Source: a virus. Taken from it: a DNA stretch of 23,926 bases. A model generated the notes under the pieces. That model made no database searches. It saw nothing but the letters and a program-made list of their open reading frames with translations, and was not told the origin of the DNA. The DNA is taken from the IMG/VR virus record IMGVR_UViG_3300001683_001958, positions 1 to 23,926 of that record; one strand, written 5' to 3'. This document shows positions 5,837 to 23,730 of the stretch, one piece after another (position 1 is the first letter of the stretch; each line of letters starts with the position of its first letter). Position numbers and translations under genes: made by a program.

Positions 5837-6286
5837 ATGAAATACATCTCAGTATATTTTAGTCCCAATAGAGGTGGAGCAGATGTTTTAATTGGATTTA
5901 TTAATAGATGTAATGTGTCAATCGATGCCGCTGTATACTGCATAACACATGATGCTATATGTGACGCTCTAATTGCTGCACACAAGAGAGGTGTAGCTGT
6001 TAGAGTCATAACTGATAAGACTCAGTCACATGGAAAATACTCTGATGACGAGAAGCTAAGAGAGGCAAAGATTCCACTAGTTTTAGGGGGAATAGCGTGG
6101 AGATCATCGATGCATAATAAGTTTGTAATCGGTGACTCAAGTGCTGTTGGCACAGGGTCTTTTAACTGGACAAAGAGTGCAGACAAGCGTAATAATGAAA
6201 ACTTTGTCATTATAAGATTAAGCTATGTTGTGAGAGAGTTTCAGAAGGAGTTCGATATATTGTGGTCAAAGCTTTGTAACTCATAA
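5837..6286 (+). CDS. PLD-family single-HKD nuclease (Nuc-like)
   Basis: 149 residues, the size of Nuc-type phospholipase-D-superfamily endonucleases that act as homodimers. The HKD motif is HNKFVIGD, with His93, Lys95 and Asp100, followed by the family's GSFNWT (107-112) and NENF (120-123). The N-terminal half has the usual helix-strand pattern (VSIDAAVYCIT, ALIAAHKRGVAVRVITDK). It has no signal peptide and no leader tag, so it should act in the host cytoplasm, probably on nucleic acid (DNA breakdown, recycling or anti-competitor activity); substrate choice cannot be read from sequence. AGGGAG precedes the ATG. Its last 46 nt overlap the convergent minus-strand gene. Confidence 0.9.
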   Translation: MKYISVYFSPNRGGADVLIGFINRCNVSIDAAVYCITHDAICDALIAAHKRGVAVRVITDKTQSHGKYSDDEKLREAKIPLVLGGIAWRSSMHNKFVIGDSSAVGTGSFNWTKSADKRNNENFVIIRLSYVVREFQKEFDILWSKLCNS

Positions 6287-7966: not shown

Positions 7967-9049
7967 ATGATATCTCTTAATAGAGAAGATATTAGGAGAA
8001 TGATTGTATCAGAAATGATCAGTGTTAGATCACTTAAGAAGCTTCCTGATGAGTTTTATGGTGCACTTGAGAATACTATTTACAATTCTCATTTTTGGAC
8101 TTATGAGAATGGTGAAGATGATATAGAGTTAAACAAGATAGGCGGCGAATATTGGGAACAAACAGATGCTGCTGTCACATTGGGAGATACTATTCAAGGA
8201 TTCTTTGACGTTGCTGGATTCCCTATAACAATAGTAGTTAGAACTCCAGATCCCATAGTAAATACAGAATGGATTGTAAATCCTGGTCACAAGGATTACC
8301 CAGACAGAATAGTTCTTGGAGGGGAGCAGTCACTATCAAATAGAGGAAGATTTGTTATGTATCTAAATCTAGTAATATTTGGACCTGACTTTATTATTAA
8401 TGATATAGATCCCGTAGTTGTTTCTAAAGATATAGGCAGGATTATTAGGCATGAACTTACTCATGCACTACACTACGAGAAAAGAAGATCTAGTCAGGGT
8501 ATTTCAAGACTTACTGCAAAGCAAAGATTTGAGGATGAGGGTGAGATTGTAGACTCTAAAGATAGAGAGAAATATTTATCATCTAAAATAGAGATTGATG
8601 CATATGCTCACCAGTTTGCAGAAGAGTTACTTTCAAATTATGGAAAGGAAGAAGCTATTCAATTTCTTAGAGGCCCTATTGAAAAATTTAAAAATGTAGA
8701 TGTATCTGATGAACTGATTGAATATCTTTTCTATTTCTCTGACCCGCTTCTTATTAAAAGATTAAAGTCAAAAATATATGCAAATATCATCGATCTAACT
8801 GATAGAGAGATCTATGAGGCAAAGAAAAAGAAGAAGAGAAAAAACTATAGTGGGTCACAACCAGAAGATGCTTATATGAAAGGGACAAAGAAAAATTTGC
8901 ATCTTGATAAGCCGAGTAGTCACGGTGGATGGCCTAGCGGACCGAGTAAAAGCTTTACTAGCAATAAACCTGTTATGAAACAAATAAGTAGCTGGCTAGA
9001 AGATATGGCAATGCTTGAAGAGCTAGAAGAAGAATTTGAAGATATTTGA
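7967..9049 (+). CDS. Tagged zinc metallopeptidase (HExxH)
   Basis: 360 residues. The leader is divergent (LNREDIRRMIVSEM, with V-S-E in place of I-x-E). Residues 25-150 precede the catalytic helix IIRHELTHALHYEKR, giving zinc ligands His162 and His166 with catalytic Glu163. A downstream EIDAYAHQFAEEL (from 209) probably supplies the third ligand, Glu209. This is the zincin arrangement with a glutamate third ligand. A lysine-rich hinge (KKKKKRKN, about 286-293) leads to a separate C-terminal segment ending in an acidic helix (LEELEEEFEDI). GAGGT precedes the ATG. If the tag directs packaging, this would be a protease carried in the head, possibly for host-protein or wall-associated cleavage on entry. 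The substrate is unknown. Confidence 0.85.
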   Translation: MISLNREDIRRMIVSEMISVRSLKKLPDEFYGALENTIYNSHFWTYENGEDDIELNKIGGEYWEQTDAAVTLGDTIQGFFDVAGFPITIVVRTPDPIVNTEWIVNPGHKDYPDRIVLGGEQSLSNRGRFVMYLNLVIFGPDFIINDIDPVVVSKDIGRIIRHELTHALHYEKRRSSQGISRLTAKQRFEDEGEIVDSKDREKYLSSKIEIDAYAHQFAEELLSNYGKEEAIQFLRGPIEKFKNVDVSDELIEYLFYFSDPLLIKRLKSKIYANIIDLTDREIYEAKKKKKRKNYSGSQPEDAYMKGTKKNLHLDKPSSHGGWPSGPSKSFTSNKPVMKQISSWLEDMAMLEELEEEFEDI

Positions 9050-14343: not shown

Positions 14344-15870
14344 ATGATTATATCAGAGGAAGAGATAAGAAATCTTATAAGAGAATCTTTAGATAAAAAG
14401 AGAGTAAATGAAATACTGTCTCTAGTCATATCTGATATAATAGAAGAGAATAATTCTAAAGGTGTAGCTCTTACAGAAGATGAAATAAATCATCTTGTTG
14501 TTGAGAAGCTTAAAGCTGCTAGGTCAATTGGAAGTGCTATCCAATCTTTAACAAGAACGTCACAAGGAGATTCAGATTCTCCAGATGCTGGCTCGATTGG
14601 AAGAACAAGCGGGAGTAACAAATTAACTTCTTTAAATCCTAATGCTGCGGATACGTTTAGAGCATTTATCAATGATGCTACAAGAAATAAATACTCTATA
14701 AGAATAACAAGCGCACAAAGAATGCCAAGCCATCAGTGGAATTTAAGATTTGGAAATAGAAGGGGAATTACACCTGCACAACCATGTCGATCAGATCACC
14801 AGTATGGATATGCAATTGATATTAATTTTTCATATGAAAAGGATGGAGATAAAGTAAGAGTTAACTCTAAAAGCTCTGATGAATTGTGGAAACCAATAGT
14901 TGACATTGCAAGATCCCATGGAATAAAATGGCAAGGTGCATCAGATAGAGTTCACTTTTTTGTACAGGGCGTGGGATCATTACAAAAAGCAAAATGTGAT
15001 CAATTTTTTGCTGACGAGCTTGGAACAGGGACGCCATCTGGGAGATCTGGAGCTGCAATTAGAAAAAGATGGGGATCTGCATCTATGAAAAGAGTAGAAG
15101 ATGAAAATCCAGCTAAGATCAAAGGTATACTTAAACTAGCAGAATCTGATCTTAGAAATATTATAAAAGAAAAGCTTAAAGCAGCAAAGTCTATTGGAGC
15201 CGGTTCTGGATCAGTGAAAGCAACAACATCATATGATACTTCAGGTGATAATAAGGGATGCGATGGAGAAGGTCCTATTACATCTTCAAAATATCCAAAA
15301 AGTGCAATAACAGCTATTGAAAAACGCATGGATGATAAAGGAATTACTAGTAGATGCACAAGGATAGCTATTTTATCTGTTTTAGCAAAAGAGTCAGCAC
15401 TTAAACCGCAGACTGAGTGGTGCTATACTGATAAATCAAACAGTGAAATAAGAAATATATGGTCTAAATTTAAATCATGGAGTGATACAGATCTTAATGA
15501 ATTAAAAGCTAACTGTGAACTATTTTTTAACACTGCATATGCTGGTATGATTGGAAATGGCGGTGTTGAAAGTGGGGACGGGTATAGGTTTAGAGGAAGA
15601 GGACTAGTTCAACTTACAGGCAGGGGAAACTATGAACAATATGGGTATACAAGTAATCCAGATGCTTTAAATAGTTTGCCTGCTGCTGCAGATGTTGCTG
15701 TAGAATTTATCACAAGAGGTTTATCTGATTTAAACTTTAATAATCTAGAAGACGCAATAAAGGCAGTTGCAAATGTAGTTGCGGGCAGTGGCAATACTGA
15801 GATTAGTGAACATTCTCCGCTAGGAAGAGCAATAAGAATGGCTACAGCTACTTCAAAACATTTTGCTTAA
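14344..15870 (+). CDS. Multi-tagged M15 peptidase + GH19 lysozyme/chitinase-like fusion
   Basis: 508 residues with two wall-degrading domains. Residues about 90-210 are an M15-type D,D/L,D-peptidase: SDHQYGYAIDI supplies His152 and Asp159, and RVHFF supplies His204 as zinc ligands. Residues about 312-508 are a GH19 glycosidase: AKES with catalytic-type Glu350, and the family signature YRFRGRGLVQLTGRGNYEQYG at 414-434. Leader copies occur at the N-terminus (EEEIRNLIRESL), at 44-62 (EDEINHLVVEKLKAARSIG) and in the linker at 266-284 (ESDLRNIIKEKLKAAKSIG), so a tag precedes each domain. The enzyme should cut both the peptide stems and the glycan of peptidoglycan. It could be a packaged entry enzyme, or an endolysin given that a terminator follows directly. 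Confidence 0.9.
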   Translation: MIISEEEIRNLIRESLDKKRVNEILSLVISDIIEENNSKGVALTEDEINHLVVEKLKAARSIGSAIQSLTRTSQGDSDSPDAGSIGRTSGSNKLTSLNPNAADTFRAFINDATRNKYSIRITSAQRMPSHQWNLRFGNRRGITPAQPCRSDHQYGYAIDINFSYEKDGDKVRVNSKSSDELWKPIVDIARSHGIKWQGASDRVHFFVQGVGSLQKAKCDQFFADELGTGTPSGRSGAAIRKRWGSASMKRVEDENPAKIKGILKLAESDLRNIIKEKLKAAKSIGAGSGSVKATTSYDTSGDNKGCDGEGPITSSKYPKSAITAIEKRMDDKGITSRCTRIAILSVLAKESALKPQTEWCYTDKSNSEIRNIWSKFKSWSDTDLNELKANCELFFNTAYAGMIGNGGVESGDGYRFRGRGLVQLTGRGNYEQYGYTSNPDALNSLPAAADVAVEFITRGLSDLNFNNLEDAIKAVANVVAGSGNTEISEHSPLGRAIRMATATSKHFA

Positions 15871-16273
15871 TATACGACTCGTATATTCTTTTTCTTTTTG
15901 GATGGCTTTTTGCATATAGCTTTATAAGCTCACCAGCCCTAGCATTTGCCTCATCCTCTATAGATCCGCCTGCATCTTGAATCTCACCAGATAATATTCC
16001 ACACTCATCTTGCATCATGTGTGTCAGCTCGTGAGCTATTGACCTCAATATGTCAACAAGCGCTCTATCTCTTCCATAAACCTTGACTATGTTTTTTCCT
16101 ATGTGGTAAGCAGCTGTAGTATCTATGTGATGACTATTTCTATCGCTTACAACGTATATTTCAAAATCGCCCACTATTGGAAGGCTATCAGCGCAAAAAT
16201 TAATAAAATCGCCAGCTAGTAAAGAGTTCTCTGGAGTAATATTAACACCGCTGTCTAAATATAATTTTCTCAT
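15848..16273 (-). CDS. Small zinc metallopeptidase (HExxH)
   Basis: 141 residues on the minus strand. The catalytic helix IAHELTHMMQDE gives His81, Glu82 and His85. The conserved downstream stretch GGSIEDEANARAGELIKLY (from 103) supplies the likely third ligand, Glu106 or Glu108. It has no signal peptide and no leader tag, unlike the larger HExxH protein at 7967, with which it shares little beyond the motif. I recall similar small metallopeptidases in other marine phages, but that is memory, not a search. The 3' end overlaps the convergent GH19 gene by 23 nt. The substrate is unknown. Confidence 0.85.
   Translation of the reverse strand: MRKLYLDSGVNITPENSLLAGDFINFCADSLPIVGDFEIYVVSDRNSHHIDTTAAYHIGKNIVKVYGRDRALVDILRSIAHELTHMMQDECGILSGEIQDAGGSIEDEANARAGELIKLYAKSHPKRKRIYESYIKQNVLK
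15869..15899 (+). terminator. Intrinsic terminator overlapping the stop codon
   Basis: The palindrome AATATACGACTCGTATATT (15869-15887) forms an 8-bp stem starting on the last bases of the GH19 stop codon, followed by TCTTTTTCTTTTT. It ends the plus-strand operon and lies inside the 3' coding end of the convergent metallopeptidase gene. Confidence 0.75.
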
Positions 16274-16716: not shown

Positions 16717-17535
16717 TCATATTATATCTACACCTATCTCTTTTGATGCGTTATTAAGAAATATAAGTATTTGTTTGGATCCGACACCAATTGACATAGA
16801 TCTAAAGTAAACTGGTGTCATCTGTATTATACCTATAGCGCTTCCATGCATGTCAAATACTACGCTGCCAGAGCTTCCTGAAGTTGCAGGTATCGTATAA
16901 AAGCATATGCTTTCAATATTTTCGCATCCTGAGAAAAATCCTTCAAAGTGAAGAAGTATACCTGATTCAGATATTCCTAGAGGAGATGCTATTGTGTATA
17001 TTTTCTCGCCAATCTCTGGCATGTCTGAAAATCTTATTGTGCCCACATTTCTTTTAATTTTTGATTTTAATAAACACAGATCAGATAGTTTGTCATAAAA
17101 TACTATATCTGCTTCATAGTTTTCAGATTTATGATCTGAAATAGTAATGATATTTTCAAATATGCTATCTTCTACAACAGGATATCTTTGTACAGGATTG
17201 CTATTGCAAAAATGGTTAGCGGTTAAAATATATGAATAATCTTCTATTTTTCTAATTATAAGACCAGATGCTGTCGATTCAAGAATAGGAAATTTTCCAG
17301 GTATGCATTGATTTTCTTCTGATGATGTATCTTCTTCTATTGAAATTGAAGTGTCAAACTCTTCCTCTTCACATGTAACATTAAGGTACTTTGTTAGACT
17401 TATTGTTACAAAATTTTCTTTATGGATATCTTGTTTTTCTAATAAATCACTGCTTTTTATTGCTATTAAAAAACAAATAGCTGATAATAATATTATCCCA
17501 AATTTTGAAAATAATTTTATTGTATTTGTTGACAT
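16717..17535 (-). CDS. Membrane-anchored trypsin-like serine protease
   Basis: 272 residues from ATG 17535, chosen because AGGA lies 7 nt upstream; a TTG three bases earlier would add one residue. Residues about 8-27 form a signal anchor (LFSKFGIILLSAICFLIAI), placing the enzyme in the periplasm. The catalytic triad of a trypsin-2/S1 fold is visible (residue numbers for the 272-residue form): His108 in LTANHF, Asp152 in SDLCLLK, and Ser222 in TSGSSGSVVFD. An acidic insert (EEEEFDTSISIEEDTSSEE) precedes the catalytic core. Four or more cysteines fit an oxidising compartment. A phage-encoded periplasmic protease could process envelope proteins, exclude other phages or aid lysis; the target is unknown. 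Confidence 0.85.
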   Translation of the reverse strand: MSTNTIKLFSKFGIILLSAICFLIAIKSSDLLEKQDIHKENFVTISLTKYLNVTCEEEEFDTSISIEEDTSSEENQCIPGKFPILESTASGLIIRKIEDYSYILTANHFCNSNPVQRYPVVEDSIFENIITISDHKSENYEADIVFYDKLSDLCLLKSKIKRNVGTIRFSDMPEIGEKIYTIASPLGISESGILLHFEGFFSGCENIESICFYTIPATSGSSGSVVFDMHGSAIGIIQMTPVYFRSMSIGVGSKQILIFLNNASKEIGVDII

Positions 17536-17553
17536 CAATAGTTCCTATAGAAT

Positions 17554-17739: not shown

Positions 17740-18897
17740 GTGTCTATTTTTAGAAATCATAAAACATCTGCAGATAGATCAGCTTCAGATAGAAGTAGAC
17801 ACAAAGAGAAGATAAAAAGAGCTATAAAAGACGGTGTTTACAACATTGTATCCAGCGAATCGATTATAGGAAAAGATGGAAAGAAAAAGATAAAAATTCC
17901 TGTCAGAGGGATAAAAGAATATAGATTCATCTATGGTAAAAATGAAAAAAAGGTAGGCTCCGCCCCAGGAAAAAATATAAGTAAGGGTCAAATAATTGGA
18001 GATGGAAAAAAGAAACGAAAGGCCAAGTCAGATAAAGGTGCCGGAAATCAAAGAGGTGAAGAGTTTTATGAGGTTGAAATAACTTTACAAGAGCTTTCAG
18101 ATTATCTTTTTGATAATTTAAAACTTCCTGATCTTGAAAAAAAGAAATTTAAAAAACTTATATCTGACGGATTTAAAAGAAAAGGATTTAGAAAAAAGGG
18201 GATTCGGCCTAGACTTAGTAAAAAAGAGACATTAAAAAATAAGCTTAAAAGAAAAAAGGCAGCATCTAGAGATAATCCTGATTTTGATGATGAAAATTTT
18301 TCATTTCATGAGTCTGATTTAAAATACAAACACATAGACTATAAATCAAGAGAAAATTCTAATGCTATAATATTCTTTATGATGGATGTATCAGGATCTA
18401 TGAGCAAAGCTAAGAGATTTAAAGCTAGATCGTTTTTCTTTTTACTGTATCACTTTCTTCGAAGCAAGTATGAGAACGTAGAGATAGTATTTATATCTCA
18501 TACAATAGAAGCAAAAGAAGTATCAGAAGATAATTTCTTTAAAGAAAGTACTACAGGCGGAACTATAATATCATCAGCTCTGGAAAAATGTCTTGACATA
18601 GTAGATAAAAGATATCATACTGATTCTTGGAATATATACGCATTTCATTGCTCAGATGGTGATAATTGGCCAACAGATAACGATAAAGCTGTTAAATTAT
18701 CATTAAAATTATCTCAGATATGTCAGCTATATTGTTATATTCAAATAGCTGCTGCTGCAAATGAGACATTTTGGTCAACTGGCGGAATGGCCGGTGTTTA
18801 TGAAAAAATTAAAAGCTCAAAGTTTAAAATTATCTCTATTGAAAAGTCTGAAGATGTCTGGAGAGAGTTTAAGAGAATATTTAGGCAAGGGGAATAA
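17740..18897 (+). CDS. yeaH: YeaH/DUF444-family VWA protein
   Basis: 385 residues from a GTG start with AGAGG upstream; bacterial YeaH is about 427, so this is slightly short. The N-terminal half is basic, with the family's early RSASDRSRHKEKIK and a Gly/Lys-rich region (about 85-105). The C-terminal half is a von Willebrand A domain with a complete MIDAS: DVSGS at 216-220, the Thr of TTGGT (271-275) and SDGDN at 305-309. In bacteria YeaH is encoded with the PrkA kinase (YeaG) and SpoVR and is linked to starvation and stationary-phase responses. An AAA+ protein paired with a VWA partner recalls the MoxR/VWA systems. Here it opens an operon with spoVR and prkA. Confidence 0.92.
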   Translation: MSIFRNHKTSADRSASDRSRHKEKIKRAIKDGVYNIVSSESIIGKDGKKKIKIPVRGIKEYRFIYGKNEKKVGSAPGKNISKGQIIGDGKKKRKAKSDKGAGNQRGEEFYEVEITLQELSDYLFDNLKLPDLEKKKFKKLISDGFKRKGFRKKGIRPRLSKKETLKNKLKRKKAASRDNPDFDDENFSFHESDLKYKHIDYKSRENSNAIIFFMMDVSGSMSKAKRFKARSFFFLLYHFLRSKYENVEIVFISHTIEAKEVSEDNFFKESTTGGTIISSALEKCLDIVDKRYHTDSWNIYAFHCSDGDNWPTDNDKAVKLSLKLSQICQLYCYIQIAAAANETFWSTGGMAGVYEKIKSSKFKIISIEKSEDVWREFKRIFRQGE

Positions 18898-18900
18898 ACT

Positions 18901-20202
18901 ATGTCTGATTGGTCAATAAGTGATCTAAAGTCTTGGGATGAAAAGATCTGTAAAATAGCTGAATCTTACAATCTTGATTGGTTTCCAATATCTTATGAGA
19001 TATGTGACTATTATGAGATGATTGGTCATATGTCATACCATGGAATGCCTTCTCACTATAGCCATTGGTCATATGGCAAGTCATTTGAAAGAACTCACCA
19101 GATGTATAATTTGGGAATGGAGGGTCTGCCATATGAATTGATTATCAATTCAAACCCATCAATAGCATATCTTATGAGAGAAAATCCATTTTATCTTCAG
19201 ATACTAATAATGGCACATTGTGTTGGTCACAGTGATTTTTTCAAAAATAATAGAATTTTTGAAAAAACTAAACCAGATAGAATTGTGACTAAAATGAGAA
19301 ATTCAAAAAAGAGAATTCAGAAATATTCTGAAAATCCTAATATTGGGCGAAGTACTGTTGAATCTTTTCTTGATAATTTACATACCATAAGATTCCAGAC
19401 TGAAAGAAATAGAATGAAAAGATTATCAAGAAAAGATCTTGATGAGAAATATGTAAACTTAATAAACTCTGATAAAAAAAATAATTTTATTGATATTGAA
19501 AAAACTTTGCTTGAACCAGACTATGATCTTCTATCTTTTTTAATTGATTACGGAGATCACTTTAAAGACTGGCAATTAGACCTAATCAATATAGTTCGTG
19601 ACGAATCTTGGTATTTTATACCCCAGATTCAAACAAAAATACTTAATGAGGGCTGGGCTTGTTTCTGGCACTATAAGATAATAAACGAGCTAGACCTTCC
19701 TCAAAAATATCATATCCCGTTTCTTAAAAGTCATAATCAAGTAGTAAGACCTCATGTGAGCTCTATAAACCCATATCATGTAGGATTTTATCTTTTTAAT
19801 AAAATAGAAAAGGAAAAGGGATTAGATGAGTGTTTTTTTATAAGAGAGGTTCAAGATGATGCATCAGCTATCAATTGTCATCTTGATATAGAGGATTTTA
19901 GAAAATTAAATCTATTCACATACTCAGTAAAAAAGAATAAGATAAGCATTGATGATATATCTGATGAAGAGGGGTGGAAATCTGTGAGATCTAGCCTGTT
20001 AAAAACTATAGGAGTTAATTCAATTCCTAGAGTATATGTTTCTGATATATCTAGTAACGGTAATTTAATACTTAGTCATGATCATGATGGAAGAGATCTT
20101 GAGCTTGAATTTGCTGAAGAAGTTGTAACAAGTATTAGAAAACTATGGAATAAAGAAGTTAAGTTTTTTACTATAATTGAAGATGAATCGTTTGAGATCT
20201 AA
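18901..20202 (+). CDS. spoVR: SpoVR-family protein
   Basis: 433 residues; bacterial SpoVR/YcgB is about 500, so the C-terminus is somewhat short. Diagnostic blocks are present in order: GMPSHYSHWSYGKSFE (48-63), MYNLGMEGLPYE (68-79), IINSNPSIAYLM (81-92), MAHCVGHSDFFKNN (104-117), NEGWACFWHYKI (about 247-258) and NPYHVGFYLF. The histidine- and tyrosine-rich blocks are the conserved core of the family, whose biochemical role is not established; it was named for spore cortex formation in Bacillus and belongs to the PrkA/YeaH stress operon in many Gram-negative bacteria. It starts 3 nt after yeaH with an AAGGGG ribosome binding site, so the two are co-translated. Confidence 0.93.
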   Translation: MSDWSISDLKSWDEKICKIAESYNLDWFPISYEICDYYEMIGHMSYHGMPSHYSHWSYGKSFERTHQMYNLGMEGLPYELIINSNPSIAYLMRENPFYLQILIMAHCVGHSDFFKNNRIFEKTKPDRIVTKMRNSKKRIQKYSENPNIGRSTVESFLDNLHTIRFQTERNRMKRLSRKDLDEKYVNLINSDKKNNFIDIEKTLLEPDYDLLSFLIDYGDHFKDWQLDLINIVRDESWYFIPQIQTKILNEGWACFWHYKIINELDLPQKYHIPFLKSHNQVVRPHVSSINPYHVGFYLFNKIEKEKGLDECFFIREVQDDASAINCHLDIEDFRKLNLFTYSVKKNKISIDDISDEEGWKSVRSSLLKTIGVNSIPRVYVSDISSNGNLILSHDHDGRDLELEFAEEVVTSIRKLWNKEVKFFTIIEDESFEI

Positions 20203-20224: not shown

Positions 20225-22153
20225 ATGTCAAAAGAAAAGTTTTTATCTCTAATAAAAAATCAGAGAAAGCAAAAGAAAACAAAAAGATTTTCAGGAACAT
20301 TTATTGATTATCTAGAGTTAATAAGTGAAAATCCTGATATTGTAAAATCTTCACATAAGCGTCTTTATGATGCTTTGACTTCTCACGGAGTTGAAATTAT
20401 TGAAGATTCAGATTCACGAAAAAATAAGATATTTGACGGCGATAATGTCAAAATATACACTTATTTTAAAAGTAATTTTTTCGGAATGGAGAGGGTCATT
20501 TCAAAAATAATGAGATTTCTTAGATCAGCATCTTTGAAGGGAGAGGAGAGTAGACAAGTCTTGCTCTTAATGGGTCCAGTAGGGGCAGGAAAATCTGATC
20601 TTACTGAAAATATCAAGAGATCTCTAGAGGGGGAAACATTTTTTCATCTAGGTGGTGATCCTCAAAGAGGTGAACCTCTACATCTCATTCCAAGAAATCT
20701 TAGAGATAAATTTACAGAAGAGTTAGGTATCCATATAGATGGTGATATAAGTCCTATTGCAAGATTTAAGCTGCTAGAGGAGTATGATGGAAAATATGAA
20801 AACTTTCCTGTAGTAGAAACATCATTCTCTCAGAGAGCTAGAAGAGGAATTGCTTCTGTTCCGCCTATGGATGCTAATAGTCAAGATGTTGGAGTTTTAA
20901 TAGGCTCTGAGGATATTTCTAAACTTGATAAATATCCCGAAGATGACCCTCGTGTGTTATCTTTAAATGGTGCTTTTAATGTAGGTAATAGAGGTATAGT
21001 TGAACTTATTGAGGTTTTCAAAAATGAAATAGAATTTCTACATACAGTTATAACAGCAACACAGGAAAAAAGAATTCCCTCTCCTGGAAAAAATGATCTT
21101 ATTCATTTTGATGGAGTTATTATTGCTCATTGTAATGAGTCTGAGTGGAATAGATTTAGATCTGAGCATACTAATGAAGCAATTCTTGACAGAATTGTTA
21201 AAGTTGAAGTTCCATATGTTCTCGAGCTTAATCAGGAGATGAAAATATATGAAAAGATATTGTCAAAATCAGACTTTGATGATCACATAGCACCTCATAC
21301 GTTAAAAATAGCATCAATGTTCTCTGTTATGTCAAGGCTTAAGCACACACAAAAATGTGATATTTTAACAAAGATGAAGATTTATAATGGTGAAGATGTT
21401 ATAGAGAAAGGAAGGGTGAAAAAGATTGATATAAAAGATCTTAGAGATGAAGCTTATAGAGAGGGAATGACAGGAATATCTACGAGATTTATTATGAAAG
21501 CAATAGATTCAGCACTTTCAGACTCTGAAAAATCTATGATTACGCCTAACGCTGTAATAGAATCTCTTATAAAGCAGGTAAAAGAACAAGTAATAAATGA
21601 AGAAGATAGAGACATATATCTCGAAATACTTCAGAAAGTTATAAGAGAAGAATATTTAAAAATTCTTGAAAATGAAATAGCAAAAGCTTTTATAACAGCA
21701 TATGAAGAGCAAGCCCAATCACTTTTTGACACATATTTGGATAATTCTGAGTGTTACACAAATAGAACCACAGTAAAAGATAGAATAACAAGAGAAGAGA
21801 GACACCCTGATGTTGATTTCATGAAGTCAATTGAGGAGTGCATTGGAATAGTAGGATCGTCAACAGATGGGTTTAGATCTGATATTACAGCATATATGTT
21901 TGCAAAAATGAGAAGAGGAGAGAAGATAGACTATAAGAGCTATGGTCCTCTTAAAGAAGCCATCGAGTCATACCTTATAAGCTCAGTTAAGGATATAGCT
22001 AGAATTGTTACAAGAAGCAAATCTAGAGATGATGACCAAAAGAAAAAATATAATGAGATGATTGGCACGCTAATAGATGAGTATGGATACAATGAAGATT
22101 CTGCTGAGGAGGTTTTAACCTATGCTTCAAATAATCTTTGGAGAGACTCATAG
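20225..22153 (+). CDS. prkA: PrkA (YeaG) family AAA+ serine protein kinase
   Basis: 642 residues, the same length as bacterial YeaG/PrkA (about 640). The N-terminal AAA+ domain has Walker A GPVGAGKS at 117-124, then the PrkA-specific SLNGAFNVGNRGIVELIEVFK (Walker B region) and ITATQEKRIP, followed by IIAHCNESEWNRF. The C-terminal kinase-like region keeps ILTKMKIYNGEDV and EGMTGISTRFIMKAI. All the family's landmark blocks seem intact, so an active ATPase/kinase is likely. PrkA works with YeaH in bacterial stress responses; a phage copy may reset host physiology or phosphorylate host targets (inference). It lies third in the operon, whereas in bacteria prkA usually comes first. Confidence 0.95.
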   Translation: MSKEKFLSLIKNQRKQKKTKRFSGTFIDYLELISENPDIVKSSHKRLYDALTSHGVEIIEDSDSRKNKIFDGDNVKIYTYFKSNFFGMERVISKIMRFLRSASLKGEESRQVLLLMGPVGAGKSDLTENIKRSLEGETFFHLGGDPQRGEPLHLIPRNLRDKFTEELGIHIDGDISPIARFKLLEEYDGKYENFPVVETSFSQRARRGIASVPPMDANSQDVGVLIGSEDISKLDKYPEDDPRVLSLNGAFNVGNRGIVELIEVFKNEIEFLHTVITATQEKRIPSPGKNDLIHFDGVIIAHCNESEWNRFRSEHTNEAILDRIVKVEVPYVLELNQEMKIYEKILSKSDFDDHIAPHTLKIASMFSVMSRLKHTQKCDILTKMKIYNGEDVIEKGRVKKIDIKDLRDEAYREGMTGISTRFIMKAIDSALSDSEKSMITPNAVIESLIKQVKEQVINEEDRDIYLEILQKVIREEYLKILENEIAKAFITAYEEQAQSLFDTYLDNSECYTNRTTVKDRITREERHPDVDFMKSIEECIGIVGSSTDGFRSDITAYMFAKMRRGEKIDYKSYGPLKEAIESYLISSVKDIARIVTRSKSRDDDQKKKYNEMIGTLIDEYGYNEDSAEEVLTYASNNLWRDS

Positions 22154-22158
22154 AGTAG

Positions 22159-23469
22159 ATGTATACTAACTTTTTAAATCATGATGATTTTAAAAAAATA
22201 TTAAAATTATCAATAGAAAATATTGATAATTTTTTTGATAATAGTATTGAAAGTATTTTACTTAAAGATAAGTGTTTAACGTCAAGTCTAGTTCAAAGAT
22301 ACGCATATTTTAAAAATGATAATATTCATAACAAAATAATAAAACCGCTTTTACTAGATGCAGCCATGAGATCTGAGAATATTTCTGGTGGAGCAGGTGA
22401 TATTTGTCTAAAGATTTCTTCAAAAATACTATTAGATAAATCACATATAGATTTTAAAACACCAGATATTGAAAAAATAATATTGAAAAATTCAAAAAGA
22501 GCAGATAGGGCTGACTTTTATAATCTTGTAGAAAAAAATTCAACATGCAGTGATCATACTGATATATTTTTATTTCTTTTTAGAAAGATGAATATTAGCT
22601 CTCCTATATTTGTTGAGAGATCTAGATTATCAAAAACAAGAATAGTACTTGATAGTGGTTTCAAGTTTAACATAGCTGTTGATAAAAAATACATTACTAA
22701 TAAGACAAGAAAAATGTCAAATGTCAAATGTTTTGTTATAGACGGCTTTATAGAGTCAGTAAGTGAGATTCATCATCTTCTTGAAGAAGCTTCACGAACA
22801 AAAGAAAATTACGTAATATTTTTTAGACATATGAATGAAGATGTCCAGTCTACAATAGAGTATAATATTCAAAGAGGTACAATAAATCTAATACCGGTAA
22901 GCGTAGGATTTGATGAGAATACTTTGAATATTTTAAATGACATATCTATATGTACAAATTCAGAGCTAATATCTTCTCACAAGGGAGATATAATATCTCA
23001 ATCAATTAGAAAGGATCCTGTTATTGTTGATTCTATTGAATTTTTAAAAGATTCTATTTCAATAATAAATAAAACACCATCAGATATGTTAAAAAGTCAC
23101 TTAAGATATCTTAGAGACAAGAGAGAGTGTTCAGGCAATCCTAGTATATTTAATATTATTGAAAATAGAATAAAATCATTATCTTCTGGAAAGATAGTAG
23201 TTTCTATAGGCGCTGATTTAATTTCTAAAGAACCTAGAACTATTGAGATATTTGACAAAATTCTTAGAGAGATGAGATCTATGATAAAGTCTGGAGTAGT
23301 TTATCTAAATGATTTAGAAGATAATATTAAAATTAAAGATATAATCTTAAATAGCAGCTATCCGTATTCTCCCCTCTCTATAATTGTAGCATTAAGAAAT
23401 TCACAATCAGTATTCAATAGCTTGCAATCTATTAGCGGTGTTATTTACGAAGATGATCCACATGCTTAA
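22159..23469 (+). CDS. Divergent GroEL-like protein (probable pseudo-chaperonin)
   Basis: 436 residues; GroEL has about 548. I recognise GroEL order in three blocks. In the N-terminal equatorial part, residues 68-81 (AAMRSENISGGAGD) align with the segment ending in GDGTTT. The apical domain is about 150-280: IDGFIESVSEIHHLLEEA, then VIFFRHMNEDVQSTIEYNIQRG, then ILNDISICTNSELIS, matching GroEL's lid and polypeptide-binding region. In the C-terminal part, ENRIKSLSSGKIVVSIGAD (335-353) and IFDKILREMRSMIKSGVV match GroEL's helix before the GGG loop. Missing are TLGPKGRNV, DGTTT, the Asp equivalent to D398 (Lys here), the GGG loop and the final helix. ATP turnover is therefore doubtful. It directly follows prkA (5-nt gap). 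Assignment is by eye. Confidence 0.7.
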   Translation: MYTNFLNHDDFKKILKLSIENIDNFFDNSIESILLKDKCLTSSLVQRYAYFKNDNIHNKIIKPLLLDAAMRSENISGGAGDICLKISSKILLDKSHIDFKTPDIEKIILKNSKRADRADFYNLVEKNSTCSDHTDIFLFLFRKMNISSPIFVERSRLSKTRIVLDSGFKFNIAVDKKYITNKTRKMSNVKCFVIDGFIESVSEIHHLLEEASRTKENYVIFFRHMNEDVQSTIEYNIQRGTINLIPVSVGFDENTLNILNDISICTNSELISSHKGDIISQSIRKDPVIVDSIEFLKDSISIINKTPSDMLKSHLRYLRDKRECSGNPSIFNIIENRIKSLSSGKIVVSIGADLISKEPRTIEIFDKILREMRSMIKSGVVYLNDLEDNIKIKDIILNSSYPYSPLSIIVALRNSQSVFNSLQSISGVIYEDDPHA

Positions 23470-23496: not shown

Positions 23497-23730
23497 ATGA
23501 GTAAATTGTCCAGAGTTAGAACAAGCGTAGCAGAGTTGATAACATTTTCAAAAGAAAAATGTACATCAAATATAGCAGAATCATTTTCAAGAGGCGATAT
23601 AAAAGTAAGTGACGATGATTTAAGAAAAATTATTAGCCTTGTTGATATGTCTATTTCTCAAGCTTTTTCTCTTGGATTTTCTAACGTAGAGTCAGCGTTA
23701 AGAGATTTTGAAAATTCAATTAAAAAGTGA
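23497..23730 (+). CDS. Small hypothetical protein after the pseudo-chaperonin
   Basis: 77 residues, soluble and helical, with no signal peptide and no tag. The segment VSDDDLRKIISLVDMSISQAFSLG (from residue 37) is the most family-like part. The ribosome binding site is the best in the window, AAAGGAGGA 7 nt before the ATG, so it may be translated in excess over the genes before it. It is not a GroES (no beta-barrel pattern and no mobile-loop signature). It ends the operon with prkA. The function is unknown. Confidence 0.75.
   Translation: MSKLSRVRTSVAELITFSKEKCTSNIAESFSRGDIKVSDDDLRKIISLVDMSISQAFSLGFSNVESALRDFENSIKK

Follow-up and report, generated by a model that had tools for sequence, protein, structure and literature searches.

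A viral DNA stretch of 23,926 nucleotides (the window) contains, just downstream of prkA, an open reading frame (ORF) whose product resembles the chaperonin GroEL. This raises the question of whether the protein could work as a chaperonin and, if not, what it might do for the phage. The features of the ORF that bear on the question are as follows.

22159..23469, + strand: predicted ATPase-dead chaperonin paralogue, 436 aa, ATG start (homology and fold)
22390..22407, + strand: GAGDIC, residues 78-83, replacing GDGTTT of the ATP site (alignment)
22657..23187, + strand: apical domain, residues 167-343 (fold alignment to isolated apical domains, per-domain conservation)
22738..22782, + strand: IDGFIESVSEIHHLL, residues 194-208, family signature, located in the strand that precedes helix H of the GroEL client groove and in helix H itself (alignments)
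22864..22866, + strand: N236, the equivalent of GroEL N265
23257..23259, + strand: K367, at the position of catalytic D398 (alignment)

Homology and predicted fold

The short protein matched the PHROG 5725 chaperonin profile over residues 151-381 (E 7.9e-15) and chaperonins in the PDB (E 1.9e-9), and the profile of its family reached E 5e-35 against the PDB. Smith-Waterman alignment with E. coli GroEL gave a score of 115, compared with a maximum of 62 among 500 shuffles; the sequence likeness of this ORF to GroEL is far above chance. The best matches of both the protein and the family were all group I chaperonins, and a group II ancestry was not indicated. A Pfam search with the protein returned no match, and the Pfam family Cpn60_TCP1 (PF00118) matched 0 of 61 short-family members. 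With 436 aa against the 548 of E. coli GroEL, the protein falls short by 112 residues, in line with the original prediction of about 110.

The AlphaFold2 model of the window protein, built from the family alignment (pLDDT 90.3, pTM 0.81), comprised apical, intermediate and equatorial domains. Its best structural match was the Thermus Cpn60 (Z 26.8, rmsd 3.4, 431 residues aligned). Another member, encoded on a 309-kb contig that lacks prkA, was modelled with pLDDT 90.8 and matched with Z 26.5 and rmsd 3.3 over 405 residues, so that the full three-domain fold is predicted in two distant members of the family. Both models were closest to the GroES-bound conformation; this preference may come from the predictor itself and was given no weight as evidence. 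The N- and C-terminal strands are retained in both models; only the model of the member from the 309-kb contig has the stem-loop hairpin, which is absent from the window model, where residues 31-40 are of low confidence. On these models, the terminal strands and the single hairpin leave ring formation possible. The earlier description of the protein as GroEL-like therefore agrees with the PHROG and PDB matches, the shuffle-tested alignment and the predicted fold; structure prediction had been named as the analysis that could overturn it, and the reading survives.

Relatives of the short protein

A search of viral contigs with the single short protein found no relative, owing to the low identity within the family, and PrkA then served as the bait. 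This recovered 79 viral loci, 68 of which carry a short protein downstream. Scans with family alignments extended the set to 92 sequences that are complete and distinct, and 28 more brought it to 120, all on uncultured viral contigs and 369-509 aa in length. In the apical-domain tree the short proteins formed one clade (SH-aLRT 100) on a stem of 1.79; because of this long stem, the tree does not settle the sister group. Pairwise dN/dS values of 0.07-0.21 indicate purifying selection.

Among isolate phages, only full-length chaperonins were found where lengths were checked, and no short form. Scanning of cellular genomes with alignment A3 gave no short relative, and with alignment A5 a single match (L282), in a Flavobacteriales metagenome-assembled genome, on a contig of 4,951 bases. 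This contig carries the same neighbour genes as the phage set and is probably phage DNA; its filing under Flavobacteriales might be a hint to the host. In the open-access literature searched, no report of an ATPase-dead group I paralogue was found. The short family, which is carried by contigs of huge tailed phages, is old, conserved and missed by standard annotation.

Loss of the ATP site and of the inter-ring segment

Alignment to GroEL showed that the window protein also lacks G32/P33 of the TLGPKG loop and G414-G416 of the GGG loop. GDGT is present in 0 of the 120 distinct complete short relatives, compared with 81 of 81 full-length phage GroELs, which all keep the Asp residues at D87 and D398 as well. 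Among the first 92 short proteins, Asp was found at D87 in none and aligned at D398 in one; among the later 28, it was found at D398 in none and at D87 in one (L321), within a gapped and uncertain stretch. Every ATPase motif listed as lost in the original prediction is indeed lost in the alignments. The proposed check across homologues showed the losses to be common to all relatives, and the motif set to be missing from no full-length phage chaperonin. Judged from these sequences, the short proteins are a family of chaperonin-fold proteins without the canonical ATPase site; nucleotide binding by another route may be compatible with this loss.

The main deleted block of the short proteins corresponds to E. 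coli residues 419-489, the site of inter-ring contacts, and the contact residues 434, 461 and 464 are missing in 92/92 sequences. The 509-aa member L321 (3482-5011) retains more of the C-terminal equatorial region, including 44 residues within the stretch that others have deleted, and might be an intermediate form.

Conservation of the apical domain and its groove

Conservation in the short family peaks in the apical domain (0.29, the other domains 0.15-0.18), whereas the full-length phage GroELs have their lowest value there (0.40, the others 0.44-0.71). Selection on the short proteins is therefore directed mainly at this domain. The groove residues themselves have changed. The position of E. 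coli L234 is Leu in 0/92 short proteins (His in 65, Asp in 13, Asn in 10) and is also polar in the later 28; V263 is seldom retained and L237 mostly is. The hydrophobic client/GroES groove is thus not found in the short family. The Asn equivalent to N265 is invariant (92/92 and 28/28), and members from loci without prkA show almost no variation in the signature IDGxIESVSEIHHLL, whose His positions vary elsewhere. The alignment of Y199-F204 differs among runs, and no claim is built on that stretch. Client binding through the apical domain had been anticipated; as the groove residues are replaced and a new conserved signature stands in their place, general client binding is unsupported. Since the ATP-site, inter-ring and groove features were looked for and not found, classifying the short protein as a functional chaperonin is not warranted.

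Gene neighbourhood

The short ORF begins 5 bases past the prkA stop codon, and its neighbours in the window are listed below.

17740..18897, + strand: YeaH/DUF444, with a weak VWA match (Pfam E 4e-106)
18901..20202, + strand: SpoVR (Pfam E 1e-113)
20225..22153, + strand: PrkA, AAA+ domain and C-terminal domain, upstream neighbour (Pfam AAA_PrkA E 1e-135)
23497..23730, + strand: 77-aa protein, with relatives 3' of the short gene in 64/94 loci

Across 94 distinct loci, for which all neighbour counts are lower bounds as flank lengths differ, 76 have prkA near the short gene and 77 have phoH there, and relatives of the 155-aa and the 94-aa downstream genes were each found in 92. The 18 loci without prkA nearby are on other huge-phage contigs, with a helicase in 18/18 and a ClpP-like gene in 17/18. 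Partnership with ClpP was rejected as a general rule, a ClpP-like gene being near only 4 of the 76 prkA loci. The link to prkA that had been suggested from gene position thus stands for 76 of the 94 loci and fails for the other 18, and the small downstream genes are the steadier neighbours; it is strong in one phage set and not general.

A conserved protein of 155-162 aa with CxC and CxxC (L229:8156-8641 and relatives; from 23742 in the record of the window), encoded close to the short gene in 92/94 loci, had no Pfam or PHROG match and likely has a zinc-binding fold. Downstream of prkA in loci L068 and L080 is a gene resembling a tail sheath.

A second, intact GroEL on the same contigs

A separate full-length GroEL is encoded in addition to the short gene on 13/13 contigs of at least 235 kb (G001, G002, G003, G024, G029, G034, G042, G070, G071, G072, G073, G084 and G085), and on 14/15 of at least 200 kb (G087 has it and G086 does not); the contigs are not certified complete, and the window's own record is just 30 kb. 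Four of the 13 were recruited via the full-length gene and nine via prkA or the short gene. Terminase was found in 11/11 tested among them. The two chaperonin genes are far apart on the contigs. No Cpn10/GroES was detected in 20 contigs with a model that would miss a gp31-type lid. For comparison, chaperonins were reported in 7 of 2,429 reference viral genomes (PMC5332604).

Comparison with known chaperonins

The short protein has homology and the three-domain fold in common with the group I chaperonins (GroEL/Cpn60, PF00118), and differs from them in lacking the ATP motifs, the inter-ring segment and about 110 residues, and in its altered groove. With the phage chaperonins (EL gp146, the full-length phage GroELs and PHROG 5725) it shares the phage origin and the significant PHROG 5725 match. 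The EL chaperonin is an active ATPase in which high conservation with GroEL is confined to the nucleotide pocket (PMC7185714); the conservation in the short family is the reverse of this pattern. A further likeness is to BBS6, BBS10 and BBS12, which have a chaperonin fold with a diverged ATP motif, are considered not to fold proteins, and have a role in assembling one complex (PMC5534436). Fold and diverged motif are common to both groups, as the one-complex assembly role may be; the BBS proteins are eukaryotic, of group II, and carry insertions, not deletions. The likeness is an analogy, and the loss of the ATP motif is not shared by descent.

The ATPase-diverged chaperonins found in the literature searched are the eukaryotic BBS proteins, and the short family is a group I version. 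With more than 100 natural sequences and an active paralogue, it would allow the function of the apical domain to be parted from ATP-driven folding. The family marks a step of the huge-phage life cycle that is conserved.

Possible functions of the short protein

The short protein could well be a non-catalytic, partner-specific binding or assembly factor and not a folding machine, a reading that we favour with moderate confidence. It is based on the retained fold, the lost ATP motifs, the single clade under purifying selection, the apical-biased conservation, the deletion of 419-489 and the exchange of groove residues for the signature. The apical domain, the sole well conserved domain, would carry a re-tooled groove (the signature plus the invariant Asn at N265) for recognising one specific phage or host protein. 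The protein would turn over no ATP and would probably be a monomer, or a single ring at most, acting in a manner likened to the BBS proteins in BBSome assembly. Candidate partners include the small proteins encoded downstream, PrkA/YeaH/SpoVR where present, and a product of the phage's own chaperonin. The constant co-occurrence with an intact GroEL counts against this reading, and may instead point to a shared ring. For the huge phages, we tentatively suggest a two-chaperonin system, in which an active GroEL is accompanied by a constant ATPase-dead paralogue whose re-tooled groove directs the assembly of one phage complex.

The shared ring is the likeliest of the alternatives. By entering the rings of the intact phage GroEL, a dead subunit might alter client choice or the cavity without adding ATP turnover, and both the co-encoded GroEL on all 13 of the largest contigs and the retained terminal strands, with the hairpin of one model, are consistent with this. 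However, equatorial identity among the short members is about 0.15, compared with 0.44-0.53 in the intact partner, which is evidence against an exacting ring interface common to both. With the inter-ring segment lost and the two genes distant as well, such a subunit seems rather unlikely. An adaptor of the PrkA/YeaH/SpoVR module, presenting substrates to the PrkA AAA+ ring, would fit the order yeaH-spoVR-prkA-short, retained in 4/4 contigs recruited via the intact GroEL, and the proximity of prkA in most loci. One PrkA homologue has been described as belonging to clade III of the AAA+ proteins and as oligomerising with ATP (PMC13001217). Nevertheless, this role is improbable given the 18 loci without nearby prkA, the three huge contigs that bear the short gene and have no prkA match at all, and two contigs (G060 and G062, with loci L068 and L080) where prkA and an intact GroEL are present and the short gene is missing.

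The original prediction had also proposed co-assembly with host GroEL. Dependence of phages on host GroEL is known, and a chaperonin fold with an apical domain would suit a factor that joins or blocks the host protein and re-targets it. Host GroEL is not the most parsimonious choice of partner, however, since the relatives on large contigs have an intact GroEL of their own, and nothing points to the host protein; we consider such a factor very unlikely. A decaying pseudogene of phage GroEL might be suspected from the lost catalytic motifs and the low identity among members, but is refuted by the intact frames of 120 relatives, the low dN/dS, the invariant residues and the conserved neighbourhood. 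Compared with generic client holding or hijacking of host GroEL, a role in specific binding or assembly, either by itself or together with the phage chaperonin, is more likely.

Other ORFs of the window

At least seven ORFs (starts 453, 1224, 1561, 6666, 7967, 9111 and 10231) bear an N-terminal tag of approximately M(K/R)ITRRQLRxIIxEE, which occurs only rarely among the related loci examined and is possibly a capsid-targeting or processing signal. The tag motif also repeats internally in an endolysin-like ORF with peptidase and chitinase-like parts (14344-15870, + strand). The ORFs at 7967-9049 (+), 15848-16273 (-) and 16717-17538 (-) comprise two that resemble HExxH metalloproteases and one that resembles trypsin, and the ORF at 5837-6286 (+) resembles a phospholipase D-type nuclease, with HNKF and similar motifs.
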